Assembly: GCF_009831555.1 (NCBI RefSeq)
Contig: NZ_WUUU01000009.1
Span: 1 to 42,888, forward strand
Source: Halobacterium bonnevillei
Lineage (GTDB): Archaea > Halobacteriota > Halobacteria > Halobacteriales > Halobacteriaceae
Length of the DNA stretch: 42,888 nucleotides
Reading direction: 5' to 3'
The notes under the pieces are model-generated. The model did no database searches, was not told where the DNA came from, and saw nothing but the letters and a program-made list of their open reading frames with translations. The position numbers and the translations under genes were made by a program. Numbering within the stretch: the stretch's first letter is position 1; the number at the start of each line of letters is the position of its first letter. Positions 8,937 through 35,740 of the stretch are shown in pieces.

Positions 8937-9038
8937 ATGCACGACACAGACAGTTCGATTCCCGTCAGTACGCGGATCGAATACGGCCGCTCGAGTTGGA
9001 CCACTAACGATCAGCCCCCCGTTGTGGGGTGGACGTGA
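8937..9038 (+). CDS. Possible 33-codon leader ORF coupled to glmS
   Basis: An ATG at 8937 opens 33 codons that end with TGA at 9036-9038, sharing its last base with the glmS ATG (TGATG). The peptide begins M-H-D-T-D-S-S-I-P-V and ends P-P-V-V-G-W-T. A C-rich/G-rich pair (CCCCCC at about 9015-9020, GGGG at 9026-9029) could fold just before the glmS start. The TGATG overlap suggests that translation of the small frame may feed ribosomes to glmS. No homology is recognised and the frame may be fortuitous. Confidence 0.3.
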   Translation: MHDTDSSIPVSTRIEYGRSSWTTNDQPPVVGWT

Positions 9039-16173: not shown

Positions 16174-16204
16174 CGTTGTACGATTCACTACCGGGCGGGC
16201 GGGT

Positions 16205-16223
16205 TTCATTATAAGCAATATAA
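16205..16223 (-). promoter_or_regulatory. glmU promoter (TWAY-N6-TATA element)
   Basis: Minus-strand TTATATTGCTTATAATGAA, TATA part about 38 bases before ATG 16173, giving a very short leader. It is one of the recurrent elements and the likely main promoter of the glmU-flippase operon. Confidence 0.6.
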
Positions 16224-16410
16224 GGTGATCTGCCGGCGTTTCCCGGTTGTTCGGCCTCGCTGGGCGTTTCCGAGCGGCGGGACGCGGACCGATTCGACCC
16301 GGAGAAAATAGTTCCGAAAAGGGGAGGCGGTTCGGAAGGGCGGGCGGTCCGGTGTTCGACGCCACCAAGCGTCCCCAGACCGTCCCACGAGAGACGACGA
16401 CGGCCACCAT

Positions 16411-19762: not shown

Positions 19763-19785
19763 GCTGTGTTCGCCGGCCCGTAGCG

Positions 19786-19806
19786 TGTTTATTATCTGCC
19801 TGTTAG
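19786..19806 (-). promoter_or_regulatory. Promoter of the His-rich lipoprotein (TWAY-N6-TATA element with hairpin)
   Basis: Minus-strand CTAACAGGCAGATAATAAAC, with the TATA part about 30 bases before ATG 19762. The element is embedded in a perfect inverted repeat CTGCCT-AAC-AGGCAG (19797-19811), adjoining the TATA box, which could be an operator. Confidence 0.55.
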
Positions 19807-19887
19807 GCAGCCGGCTTACGAGCAGTGTAAACCAGTTCGTCGACGCAGCGACCGGTGGCCGCCACACCTCCCCCCGCCGAACGCGGC

Positions 19888-19907
19888 TTACCCCTCGTAT
19901 AGTAAAA
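19888..19907 (+). promoter_or_regulatory. GT2 gene promoter (TWAY-N6-TATA element)
   Basis: TTACCCCTCGTATAGTAAAA, about 36 bases before ATG 19938. A GGGAGGGG stretch (19909-19917) follows and may serve as ribosome-binding sequence if the leader includes it. Confidence 0.6.
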
Positions 19908-19937
19908 CGGGAGGGGTGTGTACCTTCCCCCGTTCAA

Positions 19938-20846
19938 ATGCCGACTGTCAGCGTCGTGGTCCCGACGTACAACCGGGCGCGCATGCTCCACCGGAGCGTC
20001 GAGAGCGTGCTCGCACAGACCTTCGAGGACTTCGAGTTGATCGTGGTCGACGACGGGTCGACGGACCACACGAGGAACGTGACGAACAGCTACGACGACG
20101 ACAGACTCACCTACATCCGGCACGAGACGAACCGGGGCGCGAGTGCCGCCCGGAACACCGGAATCGAGCACGCCTCCGGCGAGTACATCGCGTTCCTCGA
20201 CTCCGACGACGAGTGGCTGCCCCGGAAGCTGGAACGCCAGGTCGCAACGCTGGAACGCCGGCCGCCGGAGTGGGTCGCGGTCTACTGTGGCGTGGAGATC
20301 GCCGACGACGCCGGCGTCCTCACGGAGTTCGCCAGAGCGGCCGGCCTGTGCCGGCTGGCGGAAACGGAGGGCGCGGAGGGCGGCGCCGAGCTCGTGAAGG
20401 ACGTGCTCCTCGACCGACTCCACACGAGCGCCGGCTCGACGCTCCTCGTGAAGGCGAACGTCGTCGACGCAATCGACGGGTTCGACGATTCCTTCCAGCG
20501 GTTCCAGGACCCCGAGTTCCTGATTCGCGTGCTCCGCCAGGGGAAACTCGCGTACGTCGACGAGACGCTCGTGCACCGGTACGACACGGGGCGACCCCCA
20601 GCATCGATCATCGAGCGCTCGGACCGAAAGTACCTCGCGAAGTTCTCGGACACTGTCGACGCCCTCGAGCACGACGGCCACGACGTTCGAGGCGTCCACC
20701 ACCGCTTCCTCGCGAAGTTCTACTTCCAGGACGGGCAGTTCCGCGAGGCACTCCGACACACGCGACGAGCGTCGGTTCCGGGCGTCCGCCAGTTTCCCGG
20801 ACTGCTCCAGGCTGTCGTCTCCGGCGTTACGCCGTCCAGTCCGTGA
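19938..20846 (+). CDS. Family 2 glycosyltransferase
   Basis: A 302-residue GT-A-fold glycosyltransferase without membrane helices. The N-terminus M-P-T-V-S-V-V-V-P-T-Y-N-R-A and L-I-V-V-D-D-G-S-T-D are the GT2 nucleotide-binding motifs. N-R-G-A-S-A-A-R-N-T-G and F-L-D-S-D-D-E-W carry the metal-binding DxD-type motif. The C-terminal half (F-Q-D-P-E-F-L-I-R-V-L) fits the usual E-D/W-region of the family. ATG 19938 is chosen because the motifs begin immediately; the upstream frame is promoter DNA. Expected to add one sugar from an activated nucleotide donor to the lipid-linked glycan on the inner membrane face. Donor and linkage cannot be read from sequence. Confidence 0.92.
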   Translation: MPTVSVVVPTYNRARMLHRSVESVLAQTFEDFELIVVDDGSTDHTRNVTNSYDDDRLTYIRHETNRGASAARNTGIEHASGEYIAFLDSDDEWLPRKLERQVATLERRPPEWVAVYCGVEIADDAGVLTEFARAAGLCRLAETEGAEGGAELVKDVLLDRLHTSAGSTLLVKANVVDAIDGFDDSFQRFQDPEFLIRVLRQGKLAYVDETLVHRYDTGRPPASIIERSDRKYLAKFSDTVDALEHDGHDVRGVHHRFLAKFYFQDGQFREALRHTRRASVPGVRQFPGLLQAVVSGVTPSSP

Positions 20847-21516: not shown

Positions 21517-21714
21517 CCAGTCTGGCGCGGACGAGCGCATAGTGCCAGTACTAAGCAAGCGAACGGCCCCCGTACGCCAGTGCGATGGACCGCAGTCGGG
21601 CACAACTCGGCACCGAAGCGAGTGCTGCCGTGGTCGAAGCGGCGCCGACTGCCGTCCTCGTCGTAGCATCGCCGAGCACTGGTGTGGTTGCACCGACGCC
21701 GGGGTGGTCGCGGC

Positions 21715-22836
21715 ATGACTCAGTCCAGGCAGTCCCCCGACCACATCTCGATTGCGGCCCCCGACATCGGCACCGAAGAGACCGAACGCGTCGTCGACGT
21801 CCTCGAGTCCGGGCAGCTCGCGGAAGGCAGCGAGGTGGAAGCGTTCCAGTCGGAGTTCGCCGACCAATCGGGCGCTACCCACGCCGTCGCCACGTCGAAC
21901 GGAACGACGGCCCTCCACGCCGCGCTGGAAGCCGTCGGCGTCGGCGACGGCGACACGGTCGTGACGACGCCGTTCTCGTTCGTCGCGAGCGCGAACGCGA
22001 TCCGGCTCGCGGGCGCCGAACCCACGTTCGCGGACGTCGATCCGGAGACGTACACGCTCGACCCCGACGAGGTAGTGGAACGCATCCGCGCCGAAGCCGG
22101 CGGCGTCGACGCGATTCTGGCCGTCCACCTCTACGGACTCCCCGCTGACGTCGACGCACTCGAGGCGGTCGCCGACGACCACGACGTACCGCTCGTCGTC
22201 GACGCCGCGCAAGCCCACGGGGCACGGTACGACGGCAATCCCGTGGGTACGCACGGGGACGTCGCGTGCTTCTCGTTCTACCCGACGAAGAACATGACCA
22301 CTGGCGAGGGCGGGATGATCACGACCGACGACCAGGACATCGCGAGGAACGCCGCGCGCTTCGTCAATCACGGCCGCGACCGCGCCGGCTACGAGCACGT
22401 CGACGTCGGACACAACTTCCGGTTGACGGACATCGCCGCCGCAATCGGCCGGACGCAACTCGAGAAGCTCCCCGAGTACAACGAAGCGCGCCGGCGGAAC
22501 GCGGCGATGCTCGACGAGCTGCTGGCCGACACGAACCTGGTGACGCCGACCGAGCCGAACGGCCGCAGGCACGTCTACCACCAGTACACCGTACGGTGTG
22601 GGAACCGGGACGAGGTGTCGTCCGCCCTCGAAGCCAACGCGATCGACACCGGCGTCTACTATCCGATCCCGATCCACGAACAGCCGGCGTTCGATCACGT
22701 CGACTGCGACGCGCCGGTCGCGGAGACGGTCGCCGACCAGGTGCTCTCCCTGCCCGTCCACCCCGGCCTCTCGGACCGCGACCTCGAGCGGGTCAGTCGG
22801 GTGCTCTCCGAAGAGGTGACAGTCGCCCATGTCTGA
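21715..22836 (+). CDS. DegT/DnrJ/EryC1 family PLP-dependent sugar aminotransferase (WbpE/WlbC-like)
   Basis: A 373-residue enzyme. It transfers an amino group from glutamate to a keto sugar nucleotide; the context suggests C3 of a UDP-3-keto-GlcNAcA. Motifs: S-N-G-T-T-A-L-H-A-A-L (PLP phosphate binding), T-T-P-F-S-F-V-A-S, V-V-D-A-A-Q-A-H-G (Asp binding PLP nitrogen), and S-F-Y-P-T-K-N-M-T-T-G-E-G-G with the Schiff-base Lys192. Normal length for the family. ATG 21715 is chosen because the conserved N-terminus starts here. Its last 8 bases overlap the start of the Gfo/Idh dehydrogenase, a pairing also seen in bacterial wbpB/wbpE-type loci. Confidence 0.9.
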   Translation: MTQSRQSPDHISIAAPDIGTEETERVVDVLESGQLAEGSEVEAFQSEFADQSGATHAVATSNGTTALHAALEAVGVGDGDTVVTTPFSFVASANAIRLAGAEPTFADVDPETYTLDPDEVVERIRAEAGGVDAILAVHLYGLPADVDALEAVADDHDVPLVVDAAQAHGARYDGNPVGTHGDVACFSFYPTKNMTTGEGGMITTDDQDIARNAARFVNHGRDRAGYEHVDVGHNFRLTDIAAAIGRTQLEKLPEYNEARRRNAAMLDELLADTNLVTPTEPNGRRHVYHQYTVRCGNRDEVSSALEANAIDTGVYYPIPIHEQPAFDHVDCDAPVAETVADQVLSLPVHPGLSDRDLERVSRVLSEEVTVAHV

Positions 22837-23818
22837 ACATCCCGTCCGCGCGGGCGTCGTCGGCGTCGGCAGCATGGGGCAGAACCACGCACGCGTCTAC
22901 GATTCGCTGTCCGGCGTCTCGCTCGTCGGCGTCGCGGACGCGGACGAGTCGCAGGCGGCCGCCGTCGCGGCAGCCTGCGGAACGACCGCGGTCGAAGACG
23001 ACGTGCTGTTCGAGCAGACTGACGTCGTCTCCATCTCGGTGCCGACGCAGTACCACTACGACATCACGCGGCGCGCACTGGAGGCCGGGGTCGACGTGCT
23101 CGTCGAGAAGCCGTTCGTCGCCGAGCCAGCGGAGGGCCGGGAGCTCATCGAGTGCGCCGAACGGAACGATGCGATAATCCAGGTCGGTCACGTCGAGCGG
23201 TTCAATCCGGTCGTGGAGGCCCTCGAACGCATCGTCTCGAACCTCGACGTCATTGCGACGCACGCGCAGCGCCTGAGTCCGCCGCCGGACCGGGACATCG
23301 ACGACACGGCGACGATGGACCTCATGATCCACGACATCGACCTGGTGCGGACGCTCGTCGACGGATCCGTCGAATCCTGTGGCGCGTTCGGCGCCGCGAA
23401 CGGCCGCTACGCCGTCGGCACCCTGCAGTTCGACTCCGGCGTGGTGTCGAACCTGACCGCGAGCCGGGTGACCCAGGAGGAAGTCCGCCAGCTCACCGTC
23501 TCCGCGAAGACGTGCCGCGTGAAAGCGGACCTGCTCGAGCAGACGGTCGAGATTCACCGTGATTCGGCGGCCGAGTTCGCCGACGACATCGGGGACGTCG
23601 ACTGCCGCGGCGAGGACGTCGTCGAGCAGATCGCCGTCCAGGACGCGGAACCACTCGAGCGAGAGCTCCGAGCGTTCGTGGAGGCCGCCCGCGCCGGTGC
23701 GGAGCCGCGCGTGACCGGCGAGGACGGCCTCCGCGTGCTGGAGATTGCCCACGCGGTCGAGAGCGACCGCGTCCACGGCGAGCGTCGGTCGGATCGGTCC
23801 GAAGTCATGCCGAGCTGA
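22829..23818 (+). CDS. Gfo/Idh/MocA family sugar-nucleotide 3-dehydrogenase (WbpB/WlbA-like)
   Basis: A 329-residue NAD(P)-dependent oxidoreductase. Rossmann motif G-V-V-G-V-G-S-M-G-Q-N-H-A-R-V-Y at residues about 9-24. The catalytic E-K-P-F with Lys94 is next, followed by H-V-E-R-F-N-P-V and the family H-D-I-D-L (H-x-x-D) motif. Beside a DegT aminotransferase and a hexapeptide acetyltransferase, the likely role is oxidation of C3 of UDP-GlcNAcA, as WbpB/WlbA do. Exact substrate is inferred from context. It overlaps the aminotransferase by 8 bases and ends 55 bases before a fresh promoter element. Confidence 0.88.
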   Translation: MSEHPVRAGVVGVGSMGQNHARVYDSLSGVSLVGVADADESQAAAVAAACGTTAVEDDVLFEQTDVVSISVPTQYHYDITRRALEAGVDVLVEKPFVAEPAEGRELIECAERNDAIIQVGHVERFNPVVEALERIVSNLDVIATHAQRLSPPPDRDIDDTATMDLMIHDIDLVRTLVDGSVESCGAFGAANGRYAVGTLQFDSGVVSNLTASRVTQEEVRQLTVSAKTCRVKADLLEQTVEIHRDSAAEFADDIGDVDCRGEDVVEQIAVQDAEPLERELRAFVEAARAGAEPRVTGEDGLRVLEIAHAVESDRVHGERRSDRSEVMPS

Positions 23819-23873: not shown

Positions 23874-23893
23874 TTATCGGATTTATAGTGAAG
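23874..23893 (+). promoter_or_regulatory. Promoter of the acetyltransferase/dehydrogenase operon (TWAY-N6-TATA element)
   Basis: TTATCGGATTTATAGTGAAG. Transcription starting near 23912 would give a leader of about 110 bases to ATG 24020. In-frame codons exist from 23888 and 23963, but the protein's family start supports 24020. Confidence 0.5.
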
Positions 23894-24019
23894 GCGTCTA
23901 CGTGCCTGTCCCCGACACGTCATGACTGGCAGTACGACGTTCGAACACCAATCGCGTCAGAGATGGCCTGTCGCCACGGACGCGTCCGTCGAGGGACGAC
24001 GGCAGACGCAGCGAGACAC

Positions 24020-24601
24020 ATGACGGTGCCAACGACCGGCGCCGACTGTGCGATAGATCCCGACGCCACTGTCGGCTACGAGTACGACGGCGCGTCCGAA
24101 GCCGCGCAGCTCGGAGACGACGCGCGGGTCCGCTCCGGCACGATAATTTACGCCGACGTCGAGGTCGGCGACCGGTTCCGGACCGGCCACAACGCGGTCG
24201 TTCGGGAGGACACGACAATCGGGGACGACGTCCTCGTCGGTACGAACGTGGTCGTCGACGGGCGGACGACTATCGGGTCGAACGTGAGCATGCAATCGGG
24301 CGTATACGTCCCCCGGAACACGGTCGTCGGCGACGACGTGTTCCTCGGGCCGTACGCGGTCCTGACGAACGACCCGTACCCGCTCCGGGAGGAGGTCGAG
24401 AACGTCGGCCCCACCATCGAACCCGGGGCATCGGTCGGCGCGAACGCGACGCTGCTCCCGGACGTCACCGTGGGAGCGGACGCATTCGTCGCGGCCGGCG
24501 CAGTCGTGACCCGGGACGTTCCCCCGAACACGCTCGCAGTCGGCGCGCCCGCCGAGTACCGCGAACTACCCGAGGTCCTCGACGGAGGGAACGGCCGATG
24601 A
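24020..24601 (+). CDS. Hexapeptide-repeat sugar N-acetyltransferase (WbpD/WlbB-like)
   Basis: A 193-residue left-handed beta-helix protein made of hexapeptide turns: I-D-P-D-A-T-V-G-Y, then G-T-I-I-Y-A-D-V-E-V-G-D, followed by G-H-N-A-V-V-R-E-D-T-T-I-G-D-D-V-L-V-G-T-N. A V-F-L-G-P-Y-A-V-L-T-N-D-P-Y-P segment carries the Asn-Asp seen in WbpD-type enzymes. The C-terminus G-A-P-A-E-Y is the usual end of these acetyltransferases. It likely acetylates the 3-amino group of the UDP-sugar made by the upstream pair. ATG 24020 chosen because it matches the family N-terminus. Its TGA overlaps the next ATG (ATGA at 24598-24601), so it is tightly coupled to the dehydrogenase gene. Confidence 0.9.
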   Translation: MTVPTTGADCAIDPDATVGYEYDGASEAAQLGDDARVRSGTIIYADVEVGDRFRTGHNAVVREDTTIGDDVLVGTNVVVDGRTTIGSNVSMQSGVYVPRNTVVGDDVFLGPYAVLTNDPYPLREEVENVGPTIEPGASVGANATLLPDVTVGADAFVAAGAVVTRDVPPNTLAVGAPAEYRELPEVLDGGNGR

Positions 24602-25989
24602 CCAGCGCGCTCGACGAACGCGTGAAGCTCTACGAATCGGATCTCGCGGCGGACCGCCAGCGCTCCGTGTTCGTCTCGGGACAGGTGCCCGTCGGCGTGT
24701 ACGGACTCGGGAAGATGGGGCTCCCGCTCGCGGCGGTGTACGCGGAAACCACTGGCAACGTCGCGGGCGTGGACGTCGACCCCGAGGTGGTGCGGTCCGT
24801 GAACCGCGGCGAGAATCCAATACAGGGGGAGCCCGGTCTGGATAGCCTCGTCCGGGAGAACGTCGTCGAGGGGGCGCTCGAAGCATTCACTGACGGCGAG
24901 AGCGTCGCCGAGGACGTCAGCATCCACGTCGTCATCGTCCCGACGCTCGTCGACGACGACGACAAGCCGGACCTGTCGGTCGTCAAGAGCGTCGCGGCGG
25001 ACATCGCGGCCGGACTCGAGCGTGGCGATATGGTCGTCTTCGAGTCGACGCTCCCGCCGCGGTCGTGCCGGGACGAACTGCTCCCGCTGCTAGAGGACCG
25101 CAGCGGGCTCGACCGCTCGGAGTTCGGCCTGGCGTTCTGCCCGGAGCGGACGTCCAGCGGCCGCGCGCTCCGAGACGTCCGCGGCGCCTACCCGAAGGTC
25201 GTCGGCGGCATCGACGGCGAGAGCACGCGCGTCGCAGAACTGATCTACGGGGAACTCACGAACAACGACGTGATTCCCGTCGCGGACGCCACCACGGCGG
25301 AGGCCGTGAAGGTCTTCGAGGGCGTCTACCGCGACGTCAACATCGCGCTCGCGAACGAACTCGGACGGCACGCCGACGAACTCGGTATCGACGTCGTCGA
25401 CGCCATCGAGGCCGCGAACACGCAGCCGTTCTGCGAAATCCACACGCCCGGCGCGGGCGTCGGCGGGCACTGCATCCCGTACTACCCGCACTTCCTCATC
25501 CAGCGATTCGAGACGCCCAGCCACCTCATGGAAACCGCACGGGAGACGAACGAGATGATGCCGCTGTACACGACAGAGCTCGCGCTCAACGGCCTCCGCG
25601 AAGCGGGCGTCCCGCCGAGTGAGGCTGACGTGGCGGTACTCGGGTTGACGTACCGACCAGGAATCGCCGAAATCCGTTCGACGCCCGCGCTCCCGATCGT
25701 CGAACACCTCAACGACGTGGGCGCGGACGTCACCGCCGTGGACCCCGTCCTCGACGACTACACGGCGTTCGAGGACGTCGGCGCGACCGTCGAGTCAGTG
25801 ACCCGGCTCGAAGACCACACGTTCGACGCCGTCGTCCTGGTGACCCCCCAGGACGCGTTCGCGTCCGTGGACGTCAGGTCGCTGCGGCGGCCCGGCGGGC
25901 AGTTACTCGTAGTGGACGGCCGCCAGGAGTTCACGCACCTGCGTGACGCGGTGGACGTCGACTACCGCGGAGTGGGGTTGCATGACTGA
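24598..25989 (+). CDS. UDP-sugar 6-dehydrogenase (WecC/WbpA superfamily), copy 1
   Basis: A 463-residue enzyme oxidising C6 of a UDP-N-acetylhexosamine to a uronic acid with NAD+. N-terminal Rossmann motif V-G-V-Y-G-L-G-K-M-G-L-P-L-A (about residues 31-44), preceded by an unusual 30-residue extension. F-E-S-T-L-P-P, F-C-P-E-R-T and A-E-A-V-K-V-F-E-G-V-Y-R-D-V-N-I-A follow, then the catalytic Cys292 in G-V-G-G-H-C-I-P-Y-Y-P, and the C-terminal G-L-T-Y-R-P-G-I-A-E-I-R-S. The Y-Y-P in place of I-D-P after HCIP sets it apart from copy 2. Substrate could be UDP-ManNAc or a 3-acetamido sugar. It overlaps both neighbours. Confidence 0.9.
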   Translation: MTSALDERVKLYESDLAADRQRSVFVSGQVPVGVYGLGKMGLPLAAVYAETTGNVAGVDVDPEVVRSVNRGENPIQGEPGLDSLVRENVVEGALEAFTDGESVAEDVSIHVVIVPTLVDDDDKPDLSVVKSVAADIAAGLERGDMVVFESTLPPRSCRDELLPLLEDRSGLDRSEFGLAFCPERTSSGRALRDVRGAYPKVVGGIDGESTRVAELIYGELTNNDVIPVADATTAEAVKVFEGVYRDVNIALANELGRHADELGIDVVDAIEAANTQPFCEIHTPGAGVGGHCIPYYPHFLIQRFETPSHLMETARETNEMMPLYTTELALNGLREAGVPPSEADVAVLGLTYRPGIAEIRSTPALPIVEHLNDVGADVTAVDPVLDDYTAFEDVGATVESVTRLEDHTFDAVVLVTPQDAFASVDVRSLRRPGGQLLVVDGRQEFTHLRDAVDVDYRGVGLHD

Positions 25990-27280
25990 GACGTCCGAGG
26001 ACGTGGTCTGCGTGGTCGGTCTCGGGTACGTGGGGCTCCCGCTCGCGCTCGCGTTCGACGAGTCCGGCCTCGACGTTGTCGGGTACGACGTCGACGAGGC
26101 GAAGACGGCCGCACTCACTGACGGCACGGACCCGACCGGCGAAGTCGGGGACAGCAGGATCACGGCCTCGAACGCCTCGTTCACGCACGATCCGGCGGCA
26201 ATCGGTCGCGCGGACTACGTGATCGTCACCGTTCCGACGCCGGTCGACGACATGCAGAACCCGAATCTGGAGTACGTCGAGGCGTCCGGCCGCACCATCG
26301 GCGAGTACATCACACCGGGGACGACTGTCGTCCTCGAGTCGACAGTGTACCCTGGGGCGACGAGGAAAGTCCTGGTGCCCGCCATCGAAGCCACCTCCGG
26401 GTACGCGGTCGACCAGGAGTTCGCTATCGGGTACTCCCCCGAACGCGTCTCACCGGGCGTCGACGGACGCGGGGTCGAGGACGTGAGCAAAATCGTCGGG
26501 GCCGGTCGCGAGACGGTCCGCGAGGACCTCGTGTCGCTGTACGGCCGAATCGTCGACGCCGAGATACACCCGGCGCCGGACATCGAGACCGCGGAGGCCG
26601 CGAAAGCCATCGAGAACGTCCAGCGGGACATCAACCTCGCGCTCATCAACGAACTCGCGATGGCCTGCGACCACATGGACCTCGACACCCACGACGTGCT
26701 CGAAGCGGCGGGGACCAAGTGGAACTTCGACGACACCTACAGCCCGGGGCTCGTCGGCGGGCACTGCATCCCCATCGACCCCCTGTACCTCGTCTACCGC
26801 TCGGAGAGCGACGGTTTCTCGCCGAAACTAATCCTGCAGGCCCGCGAGATCAACGAACACGTCCCCACGCACGCCGCGCGGCTCGCGTTGCGGGCGCTCA
26901 ACGACACTGGGCGCGTGCTCGCAGAGAGCAGCCTGCTCCTCCTCGGACTCGCGTACAAACCCAACGTCGCGGACGTGGAGAACTCCGCGGTCGGCGGCGT
27001 CGTCAGCACGCTGCAGTCCTACGACGTGACGGTCGGCGGCTACGACCCGCACGCAGACGACGCGAGTATTCGACGGACCTTCGACGTCGACGTCCACGAC
27101 TCGGCGGACTTCAGGGGGTACGACGGCGTCGTCCTGACGACTGCCCACGACGAGTTCCGGGACCCGGACCTCGCGGCGATGGCCGCGGACCTCGACGACG
27201 ACCCGGTATTCGTCGACGTTCCCGGAATCGTCGACCAGCACCGAGCCGAAGCAAACGGATTCGTCTACGACAAGCTATGA
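25982..27280 (+). CDS. UDP-sugar 6-dehydrogenase (WbpA/WbpO-like), copy 2
   Basis: A 432-residue enzyme of normal length. Rossmann motif V-V-G-L-G-Y-V-G-L-P-L-A-L-A-F (about 10-24), T-V-P-T-P-V-D-D, L-E-S-T-V-Y-P-G-A-T, G-Y-S-P-E-R-V-S-P-G, and Lys in A-E-A-A-K-A-I-E-N-V-Q-R-D-I-N-L-A. Catalytic Cys262 lies in V-G-G-H-C-I-P-I-D-P-L-Y-L, with C-terminal G-L-A-Y-K-P-N-V-A-D-V-E-N-S. These are the hallmarks of UDP-GlcNAc/UDP-GalNAc 6-dehydrogenases. In this cluster it best fits the first step from UDP-GlcNAc to UDP-GlcNAcA. ATG 25982 overlaps the upstream gene by 8 bases. Confidence 0.92.
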   Translation: MTETSEDVVCVVGLGYVGLPLALAFDESGLDVVGYDVDEAKTAALTDGTDPTGEVGDSRITASNASFTHDPAAIGRADYVIVTVPTPVDDMQNPNLEYVEASGRTIGEYITPGTTVVLESTVYPGATRKVLVPAIEATSGYAVDQEFAIGYSPERVSPGVDGRGVEDVSKIVGAGRETVREDLVSLYGRIVDAEIHPAPDIETAEAAKAIENVQRDINLALINELAMACDHMDLDTHDVLEAAGTKWNFDDTYSPGLVGGHCIPIDPLYLVYRSESDGFSPKLILQAREINEHVPTHAARLALRALNDTGRVLAESSLLLLGLAYKPNVADVENSAVGGVVSTLQSYDVTVGGYDPHADDASIRRTFDVDVHDSADFRGYDGVVLTTAHDEFRDPDLAAMAADLDDDPVFVDVPGIVDQHRAEANGFVYDKL

Positions 27281-27351
27281 CCGCCAGACCAGTCACACGG
27301 ACAGACCGCACGCGGGCCCTCGACGAGGTGGTCCTGTCGTGGACGTCGTAA
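27277..27351 (+). CDS. Possible 24-residue coupling ORF between dehydrogenase and DUF354 gene
   Basis: ATG 27277 overlaps the TGA of the dehydrogenase (ATGA). The frame closes with TAA at 27349-27351, thirteen bases past the GTG start of the DUF354 gene. The predicted peptide (M-T-A-R-P-V-T-R-T-D onward) has no recognisable feature. Its position at both ends suggests it may carry ribosomes across an otherwise uncoupled gap, or simply be chance. Confidence 0.25.
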   Translation: MTARPVTRTDRTRALDEVVLSWTS

Positions 27352-28364
27352 TCAGCATCCAGCACCCCGGACACGTCCACCTCTACCGGTACGTCGCTCG
27401 CGAACTCCAGTCGCGAGGCCACCGAGTCCACGTGTTCGCCCGCGACGAACCCATCATCCGGGCGTTACTGGACACGTACGGCCTGGAGTACGAGGCACTG
27501 GCGGGCCCCGGCCGTTCGCCGGGGCCGCGGGCAGTCGGCCAACTCGCCTACGAGTGGCGGCTGCTCCGACGCGTCGCGCCGCTGTCACCGGACGTCATGA
27601 CCGCAGTCGGCGGCGTTTCCGTCGCCCACGTGTCAAAGCTCGTCGGCGCGAGGTGCGTCGTGTTCACCGACACCGAGCACGCGACGCTCACGAACGCGCT
27701 CGCGTTCCCGCTGGCCGACCGCATCTGTACGCCGCGGTACTACCGGGACGACCACGGTGCGAAACACCACCGCTACGACGGGTGTCACGAACTCGTCTAC
27801 CTCCACCCCGACCGGTTCACACCCAACCCCTCGATACTCGACGAAGCGGCGGTCGACGCGGACGAACGGTACGTCGTGTTGCGGTCGGTGGCGTGGACCG
27901 CCGCCCACGACGCCAACAACGGCGGGTTCGACGACGTCGCGGAGGTCATCGAGCGCATCGAGAGCACCGGCGCGCGCGTCCTCCTCACTGCGGAGGGCGA
28001 CGTCCCGCTGGGCTTCGCCGACCGCTGCGTGGACATCCGTCCGCACCAGATGCACGACCTGTTGTACTACGCCGACGCGTTCGTCGGAGAGGGCGCGACG
28101 ATGGCCGTCGAGAGCGGCGTCCTGGGTACGCCTGCGGTGTACGTGAATACGCTCGAGACCGGGCTCACGGACGCACTCGCCGAAGAGTACGGCCTGCTCT
28201 TCCGCTGTCACGGCGACAGCCGCCAGGAGCGCGCCGTCGAGCGCACCGTCGAACTGCTGGAGCACGAAGCGGAATACGACTGGGAGCGCCGCCGCGTCGA
28301 CCTCCTCGCGGACGTCGACGACCCCCTCGAGGCGGCAGTGAACGAGATCTGTGGCACGGCCTGA
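27339..28364 (+). CDS. DUF354 family protein (GT-B / UDP-GlcNAc 2-epimerase-like fold)
   Basis: A 341-residue protein from GTG 27339. Begins M-D-V-V-I-S-I-Q-H-P-G-H-V-H-L-Y, the DUF354 start, and continues with V-F-A-R-D-E. Later segments are A-V-G-G-V-S-V-A-H-V, F-T-D-T-E-H-A, and C-terminal A-D-A-F-V-G-E-G-A-T-M-A-V-E-S-G-V-L-G-T-P. These look like the UDP-binding half of GT-B enzymes. DUF354 is distantly related to UDP-GlcNAc 2-epimerases and glycosyltransferases and is common in archaeal glycan loci. It may be a transferase, or a 2-epimerase giving the ManNAc form; the sequence alone does not decide. It sits between the dehydrogenases and the GT4 gene in one transcription unit. Confidence 0.85.
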   Translation: MDVVISIQHPGHVHLYRYVARELQSRGHRVHVFARDEPIIRALLDTYGLEYEALAGPGRSPGPRAVGQLAYEWRLLRRVAPLSPDVMTAVGGVSVAHVSKLVGARCVVFTDTEHATLTNALAFPLADRICTPRYYRDDHGAKHHRYDGCHELVYLHPDRFTPNPSILDEAAVDADERYVVLRSVAWTAAHDANNGGFDDVAEVIERIESTGARVLLTAEGDVPLGFADRCVDIRPHQMHDLLYYADAFVGEGATMAVESGVLGTPAVYVNTLETGLTDALAEEYGLLFRCHGDSRQERAVERTVELLEHEAEYDWERRRVDLLADVDDPLEAAVNEICGTA

Positions 28365-28365
28365 G

Positions 28366-29289
28366 ATGCACGTACTCCAGATCGTCACGACCGCGTCGCC
28401 GTTCTTCGAACAGCAGGTGGAGGCGCTGGAAGCCCGCGGCGTCGACTGTACCACCGTCGAGGTTCCCGACGCCGACGGGACGCCAGCCACCCTCGACGCC
28501 TACCGGCAGTTCTACCAGCGCGTGCTCCGGGAGGGAATCGGTTCGTACGACCTCGTGCACGCGAACTACGGGCTCGTCGGACCGTTCGCGCTCGCACAGC
28601 CGACGCGCCCCGTCGTGCTCTCGCTGTGGGGCTCGGAGGTGCTCGGGGAGTCGAGACGACTGACGGCGGTGAGCACTGCGGCCGCGCGAGCCAGTGACGC
28701 CGTCGTGCTCCCGTCGGAACCGATTTCGCGAGCGTTCGACGTCCCTCACCGCGTGATTCCGTTCCCCGTGGACACTGAGACGTTCCGGCCGATTCCGCGG
28801 GCTGCGGCCCGCCAGCAGGTCGACTGGGAGCCGGACCCCCGGATCGTCCTGTTCCCGTACCACCCCGATAGGGGGGTGAAGAACTACCCGCGTGCGGAAC
28901 GTATCGTCGCGGCGGTCGACGACCGCATCGAGGACCCGGTCGAACTGCGCTGGATCTGGGGCGTCCCCCACGACGAAGTGCCGCTGTACATGAACGCCAG
29001 CGACGCGGTCCTCGTGACCTCCGACCACGAGAGCGGCCCGATGGTCGTCAAGGAGGCCGCCGCCTGCAACGTGCCCGTCGTCTCCACGGACGTCGGATTC
29101 GCGTCCGCCGTGCTGGACGGCGTCGAACACTCCCACGTCTGCAGCGCGGACGAGGGCTTCGTGGACGCCCTCACCGACGTTCTGGCGGCGGGCGAGCGGT
29201 CGAACGGCACGTCGACGCTGGAACTTCCGGACAGCGAACGCACGGGCGAACGCCTCCACGACGTCTACCGGAGCGTCGTCGAAGCGTAA
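28366..29289 (+). CDS. Family 4 glycosyltransferase (GT-B fold)
   Basis: A 307-residue protein from ATG 28366, 1 base after the DUF354 stop; a GTG at 28351 is possible but overlaps. N-terminal domain M-H-V-L-Q-I-V-T-T-A-S-P-F-F-E-Q-Q-V, then V-H-A-N-Y-G-L-V-G-P-F-A and L-S-L-W-G-S-E-V-L-G. Linker F-P-V-D-T-E-T-F. The C-terminal GT1/GT4 signature D-A-V-L-V-T-S-D-H-E-S-G-P-M-V-V-K-E-A-A-A-C carries the two-Glu (E-x7-E) pattern that binds the donor nucleotide. No transmembrane segment. It probably adds a sugar to the growing lipid-linked glycan. It closes the operon that starts at 24020. Confidence 0.9.
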   Translation: MHVLQIVTTASPFFEQQVEALEARGVDCTTVEVPDADGTPATLDAYRQFYQRVLREGIGSYDLVHANYGLVGPFALAQPTRPVVLSLWGSEVLGESRRLTAVSTAAARASDAVVLPSEPISRAFDVPHRVIPFPVDTETFRPIPRAAARQQVDWEPDPRIVLFPYHPDRGVKNYPRAERIVAAVDDRIEDPVELRWIWGVPHDEVPLYMNASDAVLVTSDHESGPMVVKEAAACNVPVVSTDVGFASAVLDGVEHSHVCSADEGFVDALTDVLAAGERSNGTSTLELPDSERTGERLHDVYRSVVEA

Positions 29290-29429: not shown

Positions 29430-31358
29430 TTACAGGCGCGCCTCGATCCAGTCGAGAATCGCGTCGGTCTCGTGGTGCGGCGGGGTCGTGTCGCCGTCGA
29501 GTTCGAGTTGCGGCACGAACGAGAGGCCGAGGTCTGCGGCGGCCGCGGTCGTCTGCCGGACCGGACGTTCGTAGCTGTCGTCGTCGACGCGCGCGCTGAC
29601 CTTTCCGTGGTTCCTGACGCCCGCCGCTTCCATTGCGTCAGTCAGGGCGTCCAGCGACGTCCAGTCGAGCGCCGACTGGTTGTCGAACACGTACTCGAAG
29701 AACGCCCAGTAGCTCTCGGGCTCGACGTCCCAGACGCCGAGTGCGACCTTGGAGACGAGGTCGTTCGACGGGTCCTCGAGGACGTACGATTCACTCGGGT
29801 CGTCGGGCTGGTGGGCGACGTCGCGGTACCGGACGTTCAGGTCGCCGGTCGCCACGAACTCGGTGCCGATGGCTTCGAAGTTCCCCTGGACGAACTCCTG
29901 CGTGTACGGGCACTTGAAGTTCCCGTAGACTGTCGCAGTCGGATTCCCGGGGTCAGTCCCCGTCACGCCGTACGTGTACTCGTCGACGCCCTGGGGGAGC
30001 GGCGGCCCGGTTCTCGGTTCGCCCGCGTCGTCGTCCGCGGCTTCGTCGTCGCCCCCGCTGATCGCGTCCGGCATCGCACAGGTCCCCGTGGAGTCGATGC
30101 CGCTGACGTCGACGTCACCGCCGCCGGCGACGACCTGTCCGGGGACGTCGATGGTCGCGTTGTCGACGGCGCAGTTCTGCGCTGTGTCGGTGAACACGAG
30201 GCCGTCGCGGTCGGTCCCAGTCTGGTGGACGCAGACGTCCTCGACCACGACGTCGTCGCGCCGGATCGAGGCCGCACCCCGGTAGGCGCCCCCGCCCGTG
30301 ATGGCGACGTTCTCGATGGTGGTCGTCCCCGGGTCGTCGATACCGGTCGGTTCGTCGACGAACACTGCGAAGCTCGTGGAGTCGCCGCCGGAGCCGACAA
30401 TCGCGTACGCTTCGCCGATGTAGATGCGGGAGTTCCGCAGGCGGAGGCGACCACCGGAGTACGCGTTGACGACGCCGCCGCCGCCCTGGCCGCTCTCCAT
30501 GACGATCTCGCAGCCCGAAACCTCCACGGGGCCCGGGCCGTCGGCCACCCGGATGCCGCGGGAGTTGTCGTGCTCGGGGTGGGGTTCGTCGACCGCGACG
30601 GTCGCGTTGGTGACCGAGCTGCCGGGGCTGCCGAGGCGGATCTGGGCGATGTCGTTGTTCTTGTACACGCCCCCCTCGACGTGCACCGGCCCTTCGGAGT
30701 GCGAGGCGTAGAGGCCGTTGTTGCCGAAGCCCTCGACGTGGCAGTCGCGGAACGTCACCGTGCCCTTGGAGTCGACGTAGACGCCGACGGCCGTCTGGGG
30801 TTCACTGCCGTCGGGCATCCGGAGGTTCTCCACGTAGCCGTCGCCGTCTTCGTCCCAGATGGAGACGCCGAAGGCGGTGTTTTCGCCCTCGTGGGACCCC
30901 TTCTTGCGGACGTCCCGGACGACCAGGTCGTCGTAGGCGGAGAACCCGACTGTCGGGTGGTGTTCGTCGGCCGTGTTGTCGAGGACGAACCCCTCGAAGC
31001 GGAAGTCGCGCAGACTCGCACCGCCGATCCAGACGTCGACGTCGTAGTCGGGGCCGGGGACGAGTGTCGCGTTGTCGCCCACCACGGCGACGTTCGTCGC
31101 GCCCGTGAAATCGAGGTTGTTGGCGACGTAGCGACCCTCCGGGAACCGGATGAGCGTGTCGTCGTCGACGTGTTCTTCGACGACGTCGTCGACGGGGTCC
31201 TCGCCGGTGGGGTCGGCACCCTCCTCGACGACGTCCACGACTGTGTCGTAGTCCGACGCGAGCGTCGCCGCACCCGTTCCGACGAGCGACAGCGATCCGA
31301 CCGCGACGCCAGTGCTCTTCAGGAGTGAGCGCCGTGACAGCGTGATTGGGTCTGGCAC
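29430..31358 (-). CDS. Tat-exported beta-helix protein fused to a DsbA-like domain (copy 1, CPYT)
   Basis: 642 residues from GTG 31358 (TATA-like GTTATATC about 29 bases upstream, leaderless); an ATG at 31439 would put sequence before the signal. Tat signal L-S-R-R-S-L-L-K. A pectin-lyase-like start follows: V-E-E-G-A-D-P-T-G-E-D-P, then F-P-E-G-R-Y. Right-handed parallel beta-helix turns run to about residue 435 (N-N-D-I-A-Q-I-R-L-G-S-P-G-S, N-S-R-G-I-R-V-A-D-G). An acidic linker (about 436-460) joins a DsbA-like domain (about 465-640) with V-Y-G-N-F-K-C-P-Y-T-Q-E-F, Cys483, single thiol. The same domain forms the lipoprotein at 7886-8707, and the whole layout recurs at 33812-35740. The beta-helix may bind or cleave surface glycan. 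Function unknown. Confidence 0.85.
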   Translation of the reverse strand: MPDPITLSRRSLLKSTGVAVGSLSLVGTGAATLASDYDTVVDVVEEGADPTGEDPVDDVVEEHVDDDTLIRFPEGRYVANNLDFTGATNVAVVGDNATLVPGPDYDVDVWIGGASLRDFRFEGFVLDNTADEHHPTVGFSAYDDLVVRDVRKKGSHEGENTAFGVSIWDEDGDGYVENLRMPDGSEPQTAVGVYVDSKGTVTFRDCHVEGFGNNGLYASHSEGPVHVEGGVYKNNDIAQIRLGSPGSSVTNATVAVDEPHPEHDNSRGIRVADGPGPVEVSGCEIVMESGQGGGGVVNAYSGGRLRLRNSRIYIGEAYAIVGSGGDSTSFAVFVDEPTGIDDPGTTTIENVAITGGGAYRGAASIRRDDVVVEDVCVHQTGTDRDGLVFTDTAQNCAVDNATIDVPGQVVAGGGDVDVSGIDSTGTCAMPDAISGGDDEAADDDAGEPRTGPPLPQGVDEYTYGVTGTDPGNPTATVYGNFKCPYTQEFVQGNFEAIGTEFVATGDLNVRYRDVAHQPDDPSESYVLEDPSNDLVSKVALGVWDVEPESYWAFFEYVFDNQSALDWTSLDALTDAMEAAGVRNHGKVSARVDDDSYERPVRQTTAAAADLGLSFVPQLELDGDTTPPHHETDAILDWIEARL

Positions 31359-31707
31359 AGGGGAGACGTGGGAAGACGCAGAGATATAACTGACGGAAAT
31401 ACTACATGATACATTCTTTTCATGGGTCAGTTGTTCCACATGTTGGTGCTAGTTGGTTGTTCCCGGCGTTAAAGCCAGTCCAAGACCCCATGCAAAGAGA
31501 ACATATTCAATTTATTACGTACCGGCGCGGCCGTAGAACAGCGGGTGCGTTCGAGACCCGAAACGCGCGCCGGTGGACGCACGTCAGACCGCCGCCACGA
31601 CGGACCGCTACACCAGCCCCGGACCCAGTGCAAACCGGGATTAGACACTGTACAGCCGGCTCTTACACGACATATAATAAACCGGCCCCCGCCAGAATCC
31701 GAATGCG
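31359..31707. other. Divergent promoter region between beta-helix copy 1 and GT-C-like gene
   Basis: 349 bases with no gene. It contains the minus-strand TATA-like GTTATATC (31384-31391) for copy 1, an AT-rich stretch around 31385-31425 and 31500-31520, and the plus-strand element at 31663-31682. Nothing else was recognised. Confidence 0.5.
31663..31682 (+). promoter_or_regulatory. Promoter of the GT-C-like gene (TWAY-N6-TATA element)
   Basis: TTACACGACATATAATAAAC, TATA part about 32 bases before ATG 31708, consistent with leaderless transcription. Confidence 0.6.
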
Positions 31708-33603
31708 ATGGGTTGGTTTGCGCGCAGACGCCTCGACCGCGTCGTAGCGGTACTCGGATTGCTCGCCGCTCTCGGCATCTTCCCGCTCCGGTTCGTCGTC
31801 TCGCACGTCTACGCGACGACGCTGCCACTCGTCCTCGGACTCGCGTCCATCCTGTACCTGCTCGCGACCAGGACCGACTCCGCGCTCGACTACCCGCTAC
31901 CCACTGTCTCCACGACCACCGCACGGGCGCTCGAAGCACTCGCGTTCGGCGGCGTCGCCGCCCTGTTCGCGTACGGCGGCATCGTCGGACAGCGCACGAT
32001 TCTGTTCTACGACGGCGCGGCCCTCGTCGGTTCGCTCCTGTTTCTCCAGATCCTGTTCGTCAGGGACACCGACCTGCGCCCGGGGGTCGTCCTCGCGGAA
32101 GTGCTCGCGCTCGCGTTCGCCGTCCGCTTCGTCGGCCTCTACTCGTACACGAGCTACATCGGCATCGACGTCTGGTCGCACATCGCCTACGTGGAGGGCA
32201 TCAGAGTCCAGGACTCCCTCCGCGCGATGAACACGAAGTACGTCGCCTCCCCGTTCTACCACCTGCTCGTGGCCGTGACGGCAGACTTCACCGACCTCCC
32301 GAATCGCGAGGCGCTGTACCTGTCGGTCGGCGTCGTGGTGACCCTCGCGTCCGGACTGGTCTACTACGGCGCGCGCCGGTTCACCGAACCCCGGTGGGCG
32401 CTGTTCGCCACGGCGCTGTTCGCGATCAGCGCGCAAGTGATCCGCTGGGGCCTGCACGTCATCCCCACCAGCCTCGGGCTGGCGTTCTTCGTCGTCTTCA
32501 TGACGTACCTCGCGCGCGTCCTCCAGGAGTACCGGACGCGCGACGTCGGCCTCCTGGTCGGCGCCATCGTCGCGGTCACTCTCACGCACCAGTTGTCGGC
32601 GTTCGTCACGCTGGTGGTGGTGACGCTGGCGTTTCTCACACAAGTGCTCGTCCAGAGCGACTGGATTGCACCCGAGGGGGAACCGGTGAATGTGACCGGC
32701 TTGCTCGCGTTCTCGGCCGGCTTCGTCACGCTGGACTGGAGCATCACGCCGTACTCCGGCGAGTCGTTCACGAGTGTGATGTTGCTCCGCCTGCGGAACA
32801 CGCTGTTCCGATCGACCGAGATGCTGGACGTCTCGAGTTCGAAGAACGTCTCCTCGACCGCGGGCGCCGAGAGCGCGACCCTGCTGACGAAAGTCGTCGC
32901 GTACATCGACATCTTCGGCTTCCTCGCGTTCCTGTTCGTTGCTGGCCTTGGGGCGTACTACGTCCTCCAGTCCCACAACCGGACCCACGACCGCCTGTTC
33001 CAGGTCGCCACCATCGGCGTCATGTCCGTCGTCGTCCTCGCGCTCCCGATACTCGGCGTGAGTCTGTTCCTGCCCGGGCGCTGGTACGCGTTCATGTACG
33101 TGCCGATGGCGATCGTCGGCGCGCTCGGGCTTCGGTATCTCGTCTACCACCTGAATCCGCGGCTCGTCGCGGTCGGTCTCGTGGTGTTCGTGCTGGTGCT
33201 CCCGGGGACGATGCTCGTCTCGGGTGCTGCCACCATCGACAACCCCGTCTTCGATTCGAAGCAGCCGCGGTACGCGTTCACCGAGTCGGAGGTCGACGCC
33301 GTGGGAACCGTCGGCGACGTGACGACAGCCGAGACACCGCCCATCTACACGGACGCGCCGTACACGGCCATCTTCCAGCGGACGGACACCCACACGACTG
33401 CGACGATGCAGGTGCCGAGAGGTGGCCGCGCGGTGAACGAGCTGGTCCTGTACCGGACTTACCAGTCGGAGGGCGCGCCGCTGGTCGCAGACGAGAACAG
33501 GACGTCGCGACTGGAGCAGGTCTCCCGCGAACAGGTGTGTCCGTCCACCCGGAGTCACCTCTACACCACGGGAGACGTGTCGCTTTGTAGACTGGAGTCG
33601 TGA
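31708..33603 (+). CDS. Polytopic GT-C-like membrane protein
   Basis: A 631-residue protein with about 12-13 hydrophobic helices up to residue 510 and a C-terminal polar domain (about 515-631). An acidic motif in the first large outside loop, Y-I-G-I-D-V-W-S-H-I-A-Y (Asp at about 153), is followed by an amphipathic S-P-F-Y-H-L-L segment. This resembles the Asp-containing loop of GT-C enzymes of the Dol-P-mannose or oligosaccharyltransferase kind. Overall it matches archaeal large membrane glycosyltransferase-like proteins, but no single family is certain. It could transfer a lipid-linked sugar on the outer face, or polymerise glycan. It lies between two paralogous beta-helix proteins, with its own promoter. 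Confidence 0.8.
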   Translation: MGWFARRRLDRVVAVLGLLAALGIFPLRFVVSHVYATTLPLVLGLASILYLLATRTDSALDYPLPTVSTTTARALEALAFGGVAALFAYGGIVGQRTILFYDGAALVGSLLFLQILFVRDTDLRPGVVLAEVLALAFAVRFVGLYSYTSYIGIDVWSHIAYVEGIRVQDSLRAMNTKYVASPFYHLLVAVTADFTDLPNREALYLSVGVVVTLASGLVYYGARRFTEPRWALFATALFAISAQVIRWGLHVIPTSLGLAFFVVFMTYLARVLQEYRTRDVGLLVGAIVAVTLTHQLSAFVTLVVVTLAFLTQVLVQSDWIAPEGEPVNVTGLLAFSAGFVTLDWSITPYSGESFTSVMLLRLRNTLFRSTEMLDVSSSKNVSSTAGAESATLLTKVVAYIDIFGFLAFLFVAGLGAYYVLQSHNRTHDRLFQVATIGVMSVVVLALPILGVSLFLPGRWYAFMYVPMAIVGALGLRYLVYHLNPRLVAVGLVVFVLVLPGTMLVSGAATIDNPVFDSKQPRYAFTESEVDAVGTVGDVTTAETPPIYTDAPYTAIFQRTDTHTTATMQVPRGGRAVNELVLYRTYQSEGAPLVADENRTSRLEQVSREQVCPSTRSHLYTTGDVSLCRLES

Positions 33604-33689
33604 CGAGGCCCCTCTGAGCGGTCGGCGTAACGGCCCGAATTCGGTTCTGTCGCTTCTCGGAGAACAAGTTTTCGATATAACTTTATAAC

Positions 33690-33773
33690 TTGTAAAATCG
33701 TGGGGATTCCTGACAATCGGTAGACGGCGCTATCCTCCCCCGGACATACCTCCACCGGCTGACTATTTTACAA
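33690..33773. promoter_or_regulatory. Widely spaced inverted repeat upstream of beta-helix copy 2
   Basis: TTGTAAAAT (33690-33698) and ATTTTACAA (33765-33773) are perfect inverted 9-base copies about 66 bases apart. They frame a promoter-rich, AT-rich region before the ATG at 33812. Similar TGTAAA/TTTACA sequences occur at 5031-5049 and 8744-8753. They may be two operator half-sites; unproven. Confidence 0.4.
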
Positions 33774-33811
33774 CCTTAGTAATTAGGGAAAAAACTATTA
33801 AGACACATCTA

Positions 33812-35740
33812 ATGGTGGTTAGCGTGTTCGACGCCACCACCCCTAGCGGACACTCTCACAGTCGTAGAAGCTATCTGAAAACTACCGGTGCGGCGCTCGC
33901 GGGACTCACGTTCGCGGGCACTGTTTCGGCCGAGACGTCCCAGTACGACACGGTCGTCGATATCGTGGACGCGGGTGCCGACCCCACCGGCGAGGAACCC
34001 ATCGACGACGTGCTCGCCGAGTACAACGTGGACGACACCCGCATCGAGTTCCCAGACGGGCGTTACAAACTCAATAAACTCGGGCTTTACAAACGTCGTA
34101 ACTTCGCGATGGTCGGGACGGGCGACGCCACGCTCGTCCCGGGGCCCGATTACGACCGCGACCTCTGGATCGGCGGCGGGTTCGTCAGAGACCTCCGTTT
34201 CGAGGGATTCGTCCTCGACCACTCAGCGGAGAACACGGACCCGCAGGTCGCCTTCGGCGGTTTCGACAACGTCGTCGTCCGCGACATCACCAAACGCGGC
34301 TACCACGACGGTGAGACGACGGCATTCGGGTTCTCGGCCTGGGACGAGAACGGTCACATCCTCGTCGAGAACCTCCGGATGGCCGACGGCAGCATCCCCC
34401 AGGACCCAGTCGGCATCTACGTCAACACGACCGGCACGGTGACGTTCCGCGACTGCCACGTCGAGGGCTTCGGCAACAACGGCCTCTACGCTTCGTCCTC
34501 TGACGGCCCGGTCCAGGTCGAGGGGGGCGTGTACAAGAACAACGACATCGCACAGATCCGCCTCGGCAGCCCCGGCAGTTACGTGAAGAACGCGAAGGTC
34601 GTCGTGGACGACGACCACATGGACCACGACAACTCCCGCGGCATCCGGGTGGCCGACGGTCACGGCCCCGTCGACATCGAGGGCTGCGAGATCGTCATGG
34701 AGAGCGGCCAGGGCGGCGGCGGCGTCGTCGGTGCGATGTCCGGCGGGAACTTCAACCTCAGCAACTCCCGCATCTACGTCAGCGAACAGTACACCAGCGT
34801 CGGTTCCAACGGGACCCGGGGCGCCGGCGCCATCCTCGTCGACGAACCCACCGAGATAACGGACCCGGGAACGAATACAATCCAGAACGTCGCCATCACG
34901 GGCGAAGCGAAGTATCGCTCCGCAATCTGTCTGCGCCGGGACAACAACGTCATCAAGGACGTCTGTATCCACCAGACCGGCGACTACCGGGACGGCGTCG
35001 TCGCCGAACGGGACGCATCGAGCAACCGCGCAGAGAACGTGAACATCAACGTGCCCGGCACCGAGATCGTCGACGACGACGGCGACATCTCTGTCTCCGG
35101 ACTCACACTCGACGACGCCTGTGCGTTCCCGAGCGGTGTCACCGGGATGGAGACCACGTCCACCGACACGAACTCGCTCGCCGATGCCCCGTGGCCCAGC
35201 GGCTCCAGCAGGCTGACGTACGCGACGATGGGACACGACGACACGGTGACCGCTGACGTGTTCATGGGGTTCGAGGACAGCGAGGACGAAGAGGCGGCGC
35301 TGTTGGCGATGCCCCACCTCCTCCAGGAGTTCGTCGAGGCCGGCGAACTGAACGTTCGCTTCCGCCCCTACGGTCTCGAGAGCGAGCGCGGCGAGTTCCT
35401 CGCGGGCCTGCTCCAGGGCGTCTGGGACCACGAGTGGTCCGAGTTCTGGGACTTCTTCAGCTGGGCGTACGAGAACCACCACGCCTACGACCTCGACTCC
35501 TACGAGAGCGGCAGTGACTTCCTCACGGCGTTCGGCATCCGTAACTACGGCAAAATCACCGTGCGGGCCCTCGAGAACTACTACGCCGACACCCGGGCCG
35601 ACACCGCAGACGTCGCCGCCGAGCACGGCATCCCGGAGGGGATCCCGTGTATCCTCCTCGACGGCGACATGACGTGGGTCGACCGCGACGACCCCCACGA
35701 GCGCGACGACCTCGATGCCTGGATTCGCGAGCGGCTGTAG
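33812..35740 (+). CDS. Tat-exported beta-helix protein fused to a degenerate thioredoxin-like domain (copy 2)
   Basis: 642 residues from ATG 33812. A GTG at 33824 is better spaced from the TATA-like CTATTAAG (33795-33802), so the exact start is uncertain. Tat signal H-S-R-R-S-Y-L-K-T-T-G. Beta-helix sharing long identical blocks with copy 1 (G-F-G-N-N-G-L-Y-A-S, K-N-N-D-I-A-Q-I-R-L-G-S-P-G, E-S-G-Q-G-G-G-G-V-V). The C-terminal domain (about 465-640) aligns with the DsbA-like domain of copy 1 (L-Q-E-F-V-E-A-G-E-L-N-V-R-F-R, F-G-I-R-N-Y-G-K-I-T-V-R). At the active-site position it reads F-M-G-F-E-D-S-E-D: no Cys, so redox chemistry is lost. It may now act only as a binding or scaffold domain. 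Confidence 0.85.
   Translation: MVVSVFDATTPSGHSHSRRSYLKTTGAALAGLTFAGTVSAETSQYDTVVDIVDAGADPTGEEPIDDVLAEYNVDDTRIEFPDGRYKLNKLGLYKRRNFAMVGTGDATLVPGPDYDRDLWIGGGFVRDLRFEGFVLDHSAENTDPQVAFGGFDNVVVRDITKRGYHDGETTAFGFSAWDENGHILVENLRMADGSIPQDPVGIYVNTTGTVTFRDCHVEGFGNNGLYASSSDGPVQVEGGVYKNNDIAQIRLGSPGSYVKNAKVVVDDDHMDHDNSRGIRVADGHGPVDIEGCEIVMESGQGGGGVVGAMSGGNFNLSNSRIYVSEQYTSVGSNGTRGAGAILVDEPTEITDPGTNTIQNVAITGEAKYRSAICLRRDNNVIKDVCIHQTGDYRDGVVAERDASSNRAENVNINVPGTEIVDDDGDISVSGLTLDDACAFPSGVTGMETTSTDTNSLADAPWPSGSSRLTYATMGHDDTVTADVFMGFEDSEDEEAALLAMPHLLQEFVEAGELNVRFRPYGLESERGEFLAGLLQGVWDHEWSEFWDFFSWAYENHHAYDLDSYESGSDFLTAFGIRNYGKITVRALENYYADTRADTADVAAEHGIPEGIPCILLDGDMTWVDRDDPHERDDLDAWIRERL

Follow-up and report, generated by a model that had tools for sequence, protein, structure and literature searches.

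Paired beta-helix/DsbA-like fusion proteins around a GT-C-like membrane protein at the end of a haloarchaeal polysaccharide locus

Two fusions flank a GT-C-like membrane protein

We analysed a 42,888-nucleotide stretch of Halobacterium bonnevillei DNA (contig NZ_WUUU01000009.1, positions 1 to 42,888; hereafter the window). In it, two proteins, each joining a signal of the twin-arginine translocation (Tat) type, a right-handed beta-helix and a C-terminal DsbA-like domain, stand around a GT-C-like membrane protein. These three genes form the distal end of a ~33-kb locus (3208-35740). The layout is real, the fusion is rare, and it is set within a conserved locus; known kinds of protein are here combined in a new way, and our literature search found no description of a beta-helix/DsbA fusion layout around a GT-C protein. 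We propose, at about even odds, that the exported fusions modify or bind an acidic amino-uronate surface polymer and that their thioredoxin-fold part is an accessory module off redox duty. The features concerned are the following.

29430..31358, minus strand: fusion copy 1 (P0001), 642 aa; Tat-type signal, beta-helix, DsbA-like domain
30078..31250, minus strand: right-handed beta-helix of copy 1, about residues 37-427 (Pfam PF13229, AlphaFold 2 (AF2), Foldseek)
29433..29993, minus strand: DsbA-like domain of copy 1, about residues 456-642; C483 in CPYT
31708..33603, plus strand: GT-C-like polytopic membrane protein P0004, 631 aa; divergent from copy 1
33812..35740, plus strand: fusion copy 2 (P0002), 642 aa; Tat-type signal, beta-helix, diverged DsbA-like domain
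33932..35113, plus strand: beta-helix of copy 2, about residues 41-434 (Pfam; 63% identity to copy 1)
35186..35737, plus strand: DsbA-like domain of copy 2, without Cys; DSED in place of CPYT
7886..8707, minus strand: DsbA-like Tat lipoprotein P0003, monothiol (CPYT); beside and divergent from a glmS-like gene

Both fusion genes are complete reading frames with haloarchaeal codon bias, and their products carry the twin-arginine motifs SRRSLLK (copy 1) and SRRSYLK (copy 2). The start codon of copy 1 is GTG, adjoining VPDPITLSRRSLLK, and a further in-frame GTG lies upstream at 31439. Reading frames, Tat motifs and Pfam matches bear out the preliminary description, which had read from the bare sequence two 642-residue Tat-type proteins of this build on either side of a GT-C-like protein; its diverging paralogues indeed share 63% identity over the beta-helix and 34% over the C-terminal domain. 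A viral origin was considered and set aside: with the search patterns used, viral contigs held no relatives.

P0004 passes the PMT_2 cut-off marginally (E-value 2.9e-6; 28.0 bits vs 26.1). Common to 15 GT-C homologues are its D154-x-W156-x-H158, H185, H294 and C611/C627; the first of these motifs, invariant in 15/15, differs from the classical DxD of the first outer loop. C611 and C627 lie near the C-terminus, are likewise invariant in 15/15, and could possibly form an outer disulfide. We ruled out an AglB/STT3 oligosaccharyltransferase, as the WWDYG motif is not present in the P0004 sequence.

The C-terminal domain is homologous to DsbA

The C-terminal domain belongs by whole-domain similarity to the Thioredoxin_4/DsbA superfamily, in the case of copy 2 through intermediate hidden Markov models (HMMs) alone. 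Pfam Thioredoxin_4 is matched above cut-off by copy 1 (2.2e-7) and P0003 (1.1e-10), but not by copy 2. The copy 2 domain scored E 1.2e-29 with an HMM built from the remaining fused domains, 2.5e-18 with one of free haloarchaeal monothiol domains and 4e-8 with one of CPYC DsbAs; shuffled controls reached E 1.3 at best. BdbD was matched by the fusions at 7.4e-8 in a profile search, and by P0003 at 2.6e-15. P0003 (53 bits) and copy 1 (31 bits) have as their best NCBIfam match the Rcas_1661 family thioredoxin-like (seleno)lipoprotein, NF041057, a likeness that stays far under the 190-bit cut-off. The Pro of the cis-Pro loop, P616, is invariant in 7/7 fusions (assigned from sequence, the cis state not coming from a structure) and is one of 23 positions within 453-641 invariant across all seven.

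The thioredoxin fold that the preliminary description had assigned to this domain is upheld by this homology rather than by models. When modelled alone, the copy 2 domain gave a predicted local distance difference test score (pLDDT) of 62 and an element order compatible with a thioredoxin fold plus a helical insertion; Foldseek with this model returned no significant match, BdbD being among the weak ones. The models are poor because the input was limited to three or four sequences.

As expected from the first description, copy 1 and P0003 carry CPYT and copy 2 carries DSED at this site; the other fusions have GPYT or YPNT, and the CxxC redox motif was found in none of these proteins. The fusions share sequence homology with the thiol oxidoreductases BdbD and DsbA, as does P0003, but they lack the second Cys, mostly lack the first, and are joined to a beta-helix. 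The DsbA of Haloferax volcanii (Hvo_1245) is a Tat lipoprotein (PMC2945643), a form that P0003 shares.

Cysteine is mostly gone from fused domains

In a tree of 47 DsbA-like domains with CPYC proteins as outgroup, in which long branches make some joins uncertain, one clade (clade A) holds 14 monothiol Tat lipoproteins including P0003, all 14 with the Cys; most of those fetched with their flanks adjoin a glmS-like gene. The second clade contains free monothiol proteins, the beta-helix fusions and fusions to AstE/AspA-type proteins. P0003 had been described as carrying the same domain as the fusions: the two are homologous, but they fall into separate sister clades, which rules out P0003 next door as the source of the fused one. 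Both clades already lack the partner Cys of CxxC. The free domains of the second clade keep the first Cys (CPYT, CPVT, CPYS, CPSS); the fused ones, copy 1 excepted, have GPYT, YPNT, DSED or a Ser-rich site. In sum, 1/15 domains with a beta-helix or AstE partner keep the first Cys vs 32/32 others, with at least three changes in Cys presence on the tree. A thioredoxin fold that lost its cysteine, as first described for copy 2, is thus supported; the loss goes with fusion, and copy 1 is the sole Cys-bearing fusion found. It is most likely, judging from these sequences, that the thioredoxin-fold module of the Cys-less fusions is no longer redox-active. Fusion and Cys loss were not retained as a statistically independent correlation, the independent pairs being too few.

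The Cys-less domain is also fused to an AstE/AspA-type hydrolase at seven loci (L116, L117, L118, L119, L120, L122, L123; 455-488 aa), mostly next to the same trio of genes (nucleotidyltransferase, glmS-like, Asn-synthase-like). At the loci of family f4 (L116-L123), the AstE fusion belongs to the gene set of the lipoprotein. This favours a repertoire of exported modules that can be swapped and that, by their sequences, would comprise beta-helix, DsbA-like, H-lectin-like, AstE/AspA and DUF7259-like ones. One of the 32 Cys-keeping domains (L124:8275-9843, minus strand) has CPYT and is followed by H-lectin-like repeats.

The beta-helix resembles polysaccharide-active enzymes in fold

Both beta-helices fall in the right-handed class by Pfam cut-off and by fold: Beta_helix (PF13229) is matched at E 1.9e-7 by copy 1 and 3.6e-7 by copy 2, and the AF2 model has a pLDDT of ~90 over residues 40-420. 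Foldseek against the PDB placed the RbmB lyase first (E 4e-6), followed by GH110, the AlgE6/AlgE4 C5-epimerases and GH87. In Vibrio cholerae, RbmB acts as an exopolysaccharide lyase on the matrix polysaccharide (PMC11637428); as an exported right-handed beta-helix acting on its own organism's matrix, it offers a precedent for the role proposed here (PMC11637428). Unlike the fusions, RbmB has no DsbA-like domain; identity to the beta-helix is ~9%, and the archaeal proteins are candidate lyases. The AlgE/AlgG mannuronan C5-epimerases are also beta-helix enzymes, altering uronates at the polymer level, and some epimerases of this type are encoded together with biosynthetic genes; in contrast to AlgE, the fusions show no visible DPHD-type motif, and identity is 12-13%.

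Membership in a known polysaccharide lyase or C5-epimerase family, taken as a family-level sequence match with catalytic residues, was not found: Pfam and NCBIfam gave no such match to the fusions beyond Beta_helix, and a sequence search against the PDB matched no beta-helix structure. The polar residues D127, R148, E209, N214, R241, N265, R267, R367 and R384 are invariant. Arginine is enriched at the invariant positions (5/30 vs 19/394, p 0.01), and such an excess in an acidic protein fits an anionic ligand.

The GT-C/beta-helix linkage is conserved, the fusion rare

In Haloarchaeobius sp. FL176 (search family f3, vs f1 for the window), 22/22 query elements recur in the same order and with matching relative orientation at 35-70% identity, with a single fusion beside the GT-C gene and no copy 2. 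GT-C and beta-helix genes lie at most 20 kb apart in 50/72 haloarchaeal genomes vs ~1 expected; the 72 are those having both proteins among the matches listed, they come from several families, and the count ignores kinship among genomes. The beta-helices beside GT-C in these relatives are mostly unfused. The conserved part is therefore the GT-C/beta-helix linkage, and the two-copy layout as a conserved trait is ruled out.

Within the family (26 genomes), the beta-helix/DsbA fusion occurs in the H. bonnevillei genome alone; among 392 genomes of the class, it was found elsewhere in three Haloarchaeobius genomes only, and a sample of 295 genomes of the phylum yielded no additional fusion at E 1e-100. 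In scanning contigs, P0001 as a single query gave no matches and an alignment query gave 24 loci. In two of the three Haloarchaeobius genomes a pair of fusions surrounds GT-C, and an AstE/AspA-type protein lies between them. In the beta-helix tree these pairs fall on separate branches, and copy 1 groups with the FL176 fusion (support 94/92) with copy 2 outside both, so the duplication seems, on this tree, older than the copy 1/FL176 split. Polysaccharide deacetylases are encoded near Haloarchaeobius fusions (L051:10671-11867, minus strand; L049:17836-19134; L051:18177-19481).

The ~33-kb locus

The preliminary description had suggested a surface glycan module of three genes. The surface glycan part is supported, but the unit is the whole locus, whose other members are listed here.

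3208..4853, minus strand: YdjM-like and DUF1616 membrane proteins at the opposite locus end (Pfam PF04307, PF07760); conserved in relatives
9029..10855, plus strand: GlmS-like (GATase and SIS) protein (Pfam); conserved beside P0003-type lipoproteins
10872..12563, plus strand: asparagine-synthase-like protein, possible amidotransferase (Pfam PF00733, 9e-7)
12817..14922, minus strand: polysaccharide flippase, Wzx/MurJ-like (Pfam PF13440)
14992..16410, minus strand: sugar nucleotidyltransferase with hexapeptide repeats (Pfam PF00483, 3.7e-39)
19761..20846, plus strand: family 2 glycosyltransferase (Pfam PF00535)
21682..22836, plus strand: DegT aminotransferase, WbpE-like role (Pfam PF01041)
22829..23818, plus strand: Gfo/Idh/MocA dehydrogenase, WbpB-like role (Pfam PF01408)
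23888..24601, plus strand: hexapeptide acetyltransferase, WbpD-like role (Pfam PF00132)
24598..25989, plus strand: UDP-sugar 6-dehydrogenase 1, WbpA-like role (Pfam PF03721/00984/03720)
25943..27280, plus strand: UDP-sugar 6-dehydrogenase 2 (Pfam)
27339..28364, plus strand: DUF354 protein, GT-B/epimerase-like (Pfam PF04007, 1.2e-16)
28351..29289, plus strand: family 1 glycosyltransferase adjoining copy 1 (Pfam PF00534)

In Pseudomonas, the WbpA/B/D/E pathway synthesizes UDP-diacetamido-uronic acid. All four of its enzyme families occur together, adjacent, in the locus; unlike the Pseudomonas case, the locus is archaeal, and the match is one of Pfam families. Gulosaminuronic acid is a reported wall constituent of Halococcus morrhuae (PMC4187196); haloarchaeal envelopes thus can contain amino-uronates, but nothing ties the H. 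morrhuae polymer to this locus. At 6274-7716, a predicted membrane regulator (outside TSP3 repeats, one transmembrane stretch, an inside DUF7343 winged helix) keeps its place beside the DsbA lipoprotein in FL176.

Proposed function of the fusions

Based on these findings, we suggest the following scheme, in which the sugar made, the catalysis, the module's ligand and the GT-C donor and acceptor are all things that we infer. The cytoplasmic DegT, Gfo/Idh/MocA, hexapeptide acetyltransferase and UDP-sugar dehydrogenase proteins would probably make UDP-linked acetamido-uronic sugars, the glycosyltransferases would assemble the chain with the flippase to export it, and on the outer face sugars may be added or transferred by the GT-C protein. 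Both fusions would exit folded via the Tat route and act on the polymer outside the cell: the beta-helix groove would hold it and probably cleave or epimerise its uronates, much as RbmB and AlgE treat their own polymers. The DsbA-like domain would have originated as a monothiol secreted DsbA-like protein and, after fusion, dropped its redox dependence to become a docking or binding module, copy 1 being the least altered. It is plausible, as first suggested, that the beta-helix handles glycan and that the thioredoxin fold binds.

Several observations weigh against this scheme. The Foldseek TM-scores are low (TMq 0.2-0.3), beta-helix structures all resemble one another as a fold class, catalytic motifs from known beta-helix enzyme families were not found, and the Pfam match is to generic Beta_helix alone. 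The arginine test uses an invariant list from one 15-sequence alignment, with p uncorrected for other residues. AF2 confidence for the DsbA-like domain is low (mostly pLDDT <50 in the full copy 1 model), copy 1 retains its Cys, and the correlation between fusion and Cys loss has 1-2 independent pairs and is not significant. The sugar pathway, finally, is assigned from Pfam families alone.

The best-surviving alternative, which we consider unlikely yet a serious contender, is that the beta-helix proteins have no catalytic role and, as scaffolds or adhesins, keep polysaccharide at the cell surface, with variable C-terminal domains that anchor or cross-link these proteins. The missing catalytic motif, the interchangeable C-terminal modules and the numerous beta-helix paralogues per genome would agree with such a role. 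However, the nearest structures are mostly enzymes, and the invariant polar set exceeds what a scaffold needs. Distinctly improbable, in our judgement, is that the fused DsbA-like domains are functionless relics in decay. Their rapid divergence (end branches of 2.02 for copy 2 and 0.93 for FL176 in the domain tree) and the loss of the active-site segment in copy 2 could be taken in this way, but the frames are open and full-length in 7/7 fusions, the invariant positions noted above include the cis-Pro-loop Pro, and two unrelated partners (beta-helix, AstE) carry the domain. A still-active redox enzyme, whether a monothiol reductase or a helper for extracytoplasmic disulfides such as C611/C627 of the GT-C protein, is marginally less probable again: CPYT in copy 1 and P0003, the Cys of all 14 clade A lipoproteins and the two invariant GT-C cysteines would favour it, but the site lacks Cys in 14/15 fused domains and both clades had already lost the partner Cys.

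Returning to the proposal of a binding module, we put forward a wider version of it more tentatively, at somewhat under even odds: in haloarchaea, a secreted DsbA-like fold may have become a non-redox module, used repeatedly to direct exported enzymes (beta-helix lyases or epimerases, AstE/AspA-type hydrolases) to a surface polysaccharide encoded by the same locus, with the redox Cys lost after fusion and copy 1 and P0003 as intermediates. The graded series CPYC, CPYT, no Cys would then record how a thioredoxin fold appears to quit redox chemistry on fusion to polysaccharide-handling proteins. The genetics of haloarchaeal surface polysaccharides is poorly understood, and a widespread locus with candidate exported enzymes is now defined.

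Relatives elsewhere in the genomes

Many beta-helix paralogues occur per genome, and beta-helices elsewhere bear other C-terminal domains in place of the DsbA-like one. The H. bonnevillei genome encodes a third beta-helix relative (G000:C10:584-1984, locus L005), of the Tat-lipoprotein type and without a DsbA domain, which adjoins a second DegT/Gfo/hexapeptide/UDP-sugar dehydrogenase set. The same genome also encodes a further Thioredoxin_4 protein (G000:C254:2265-2615, locus L141).

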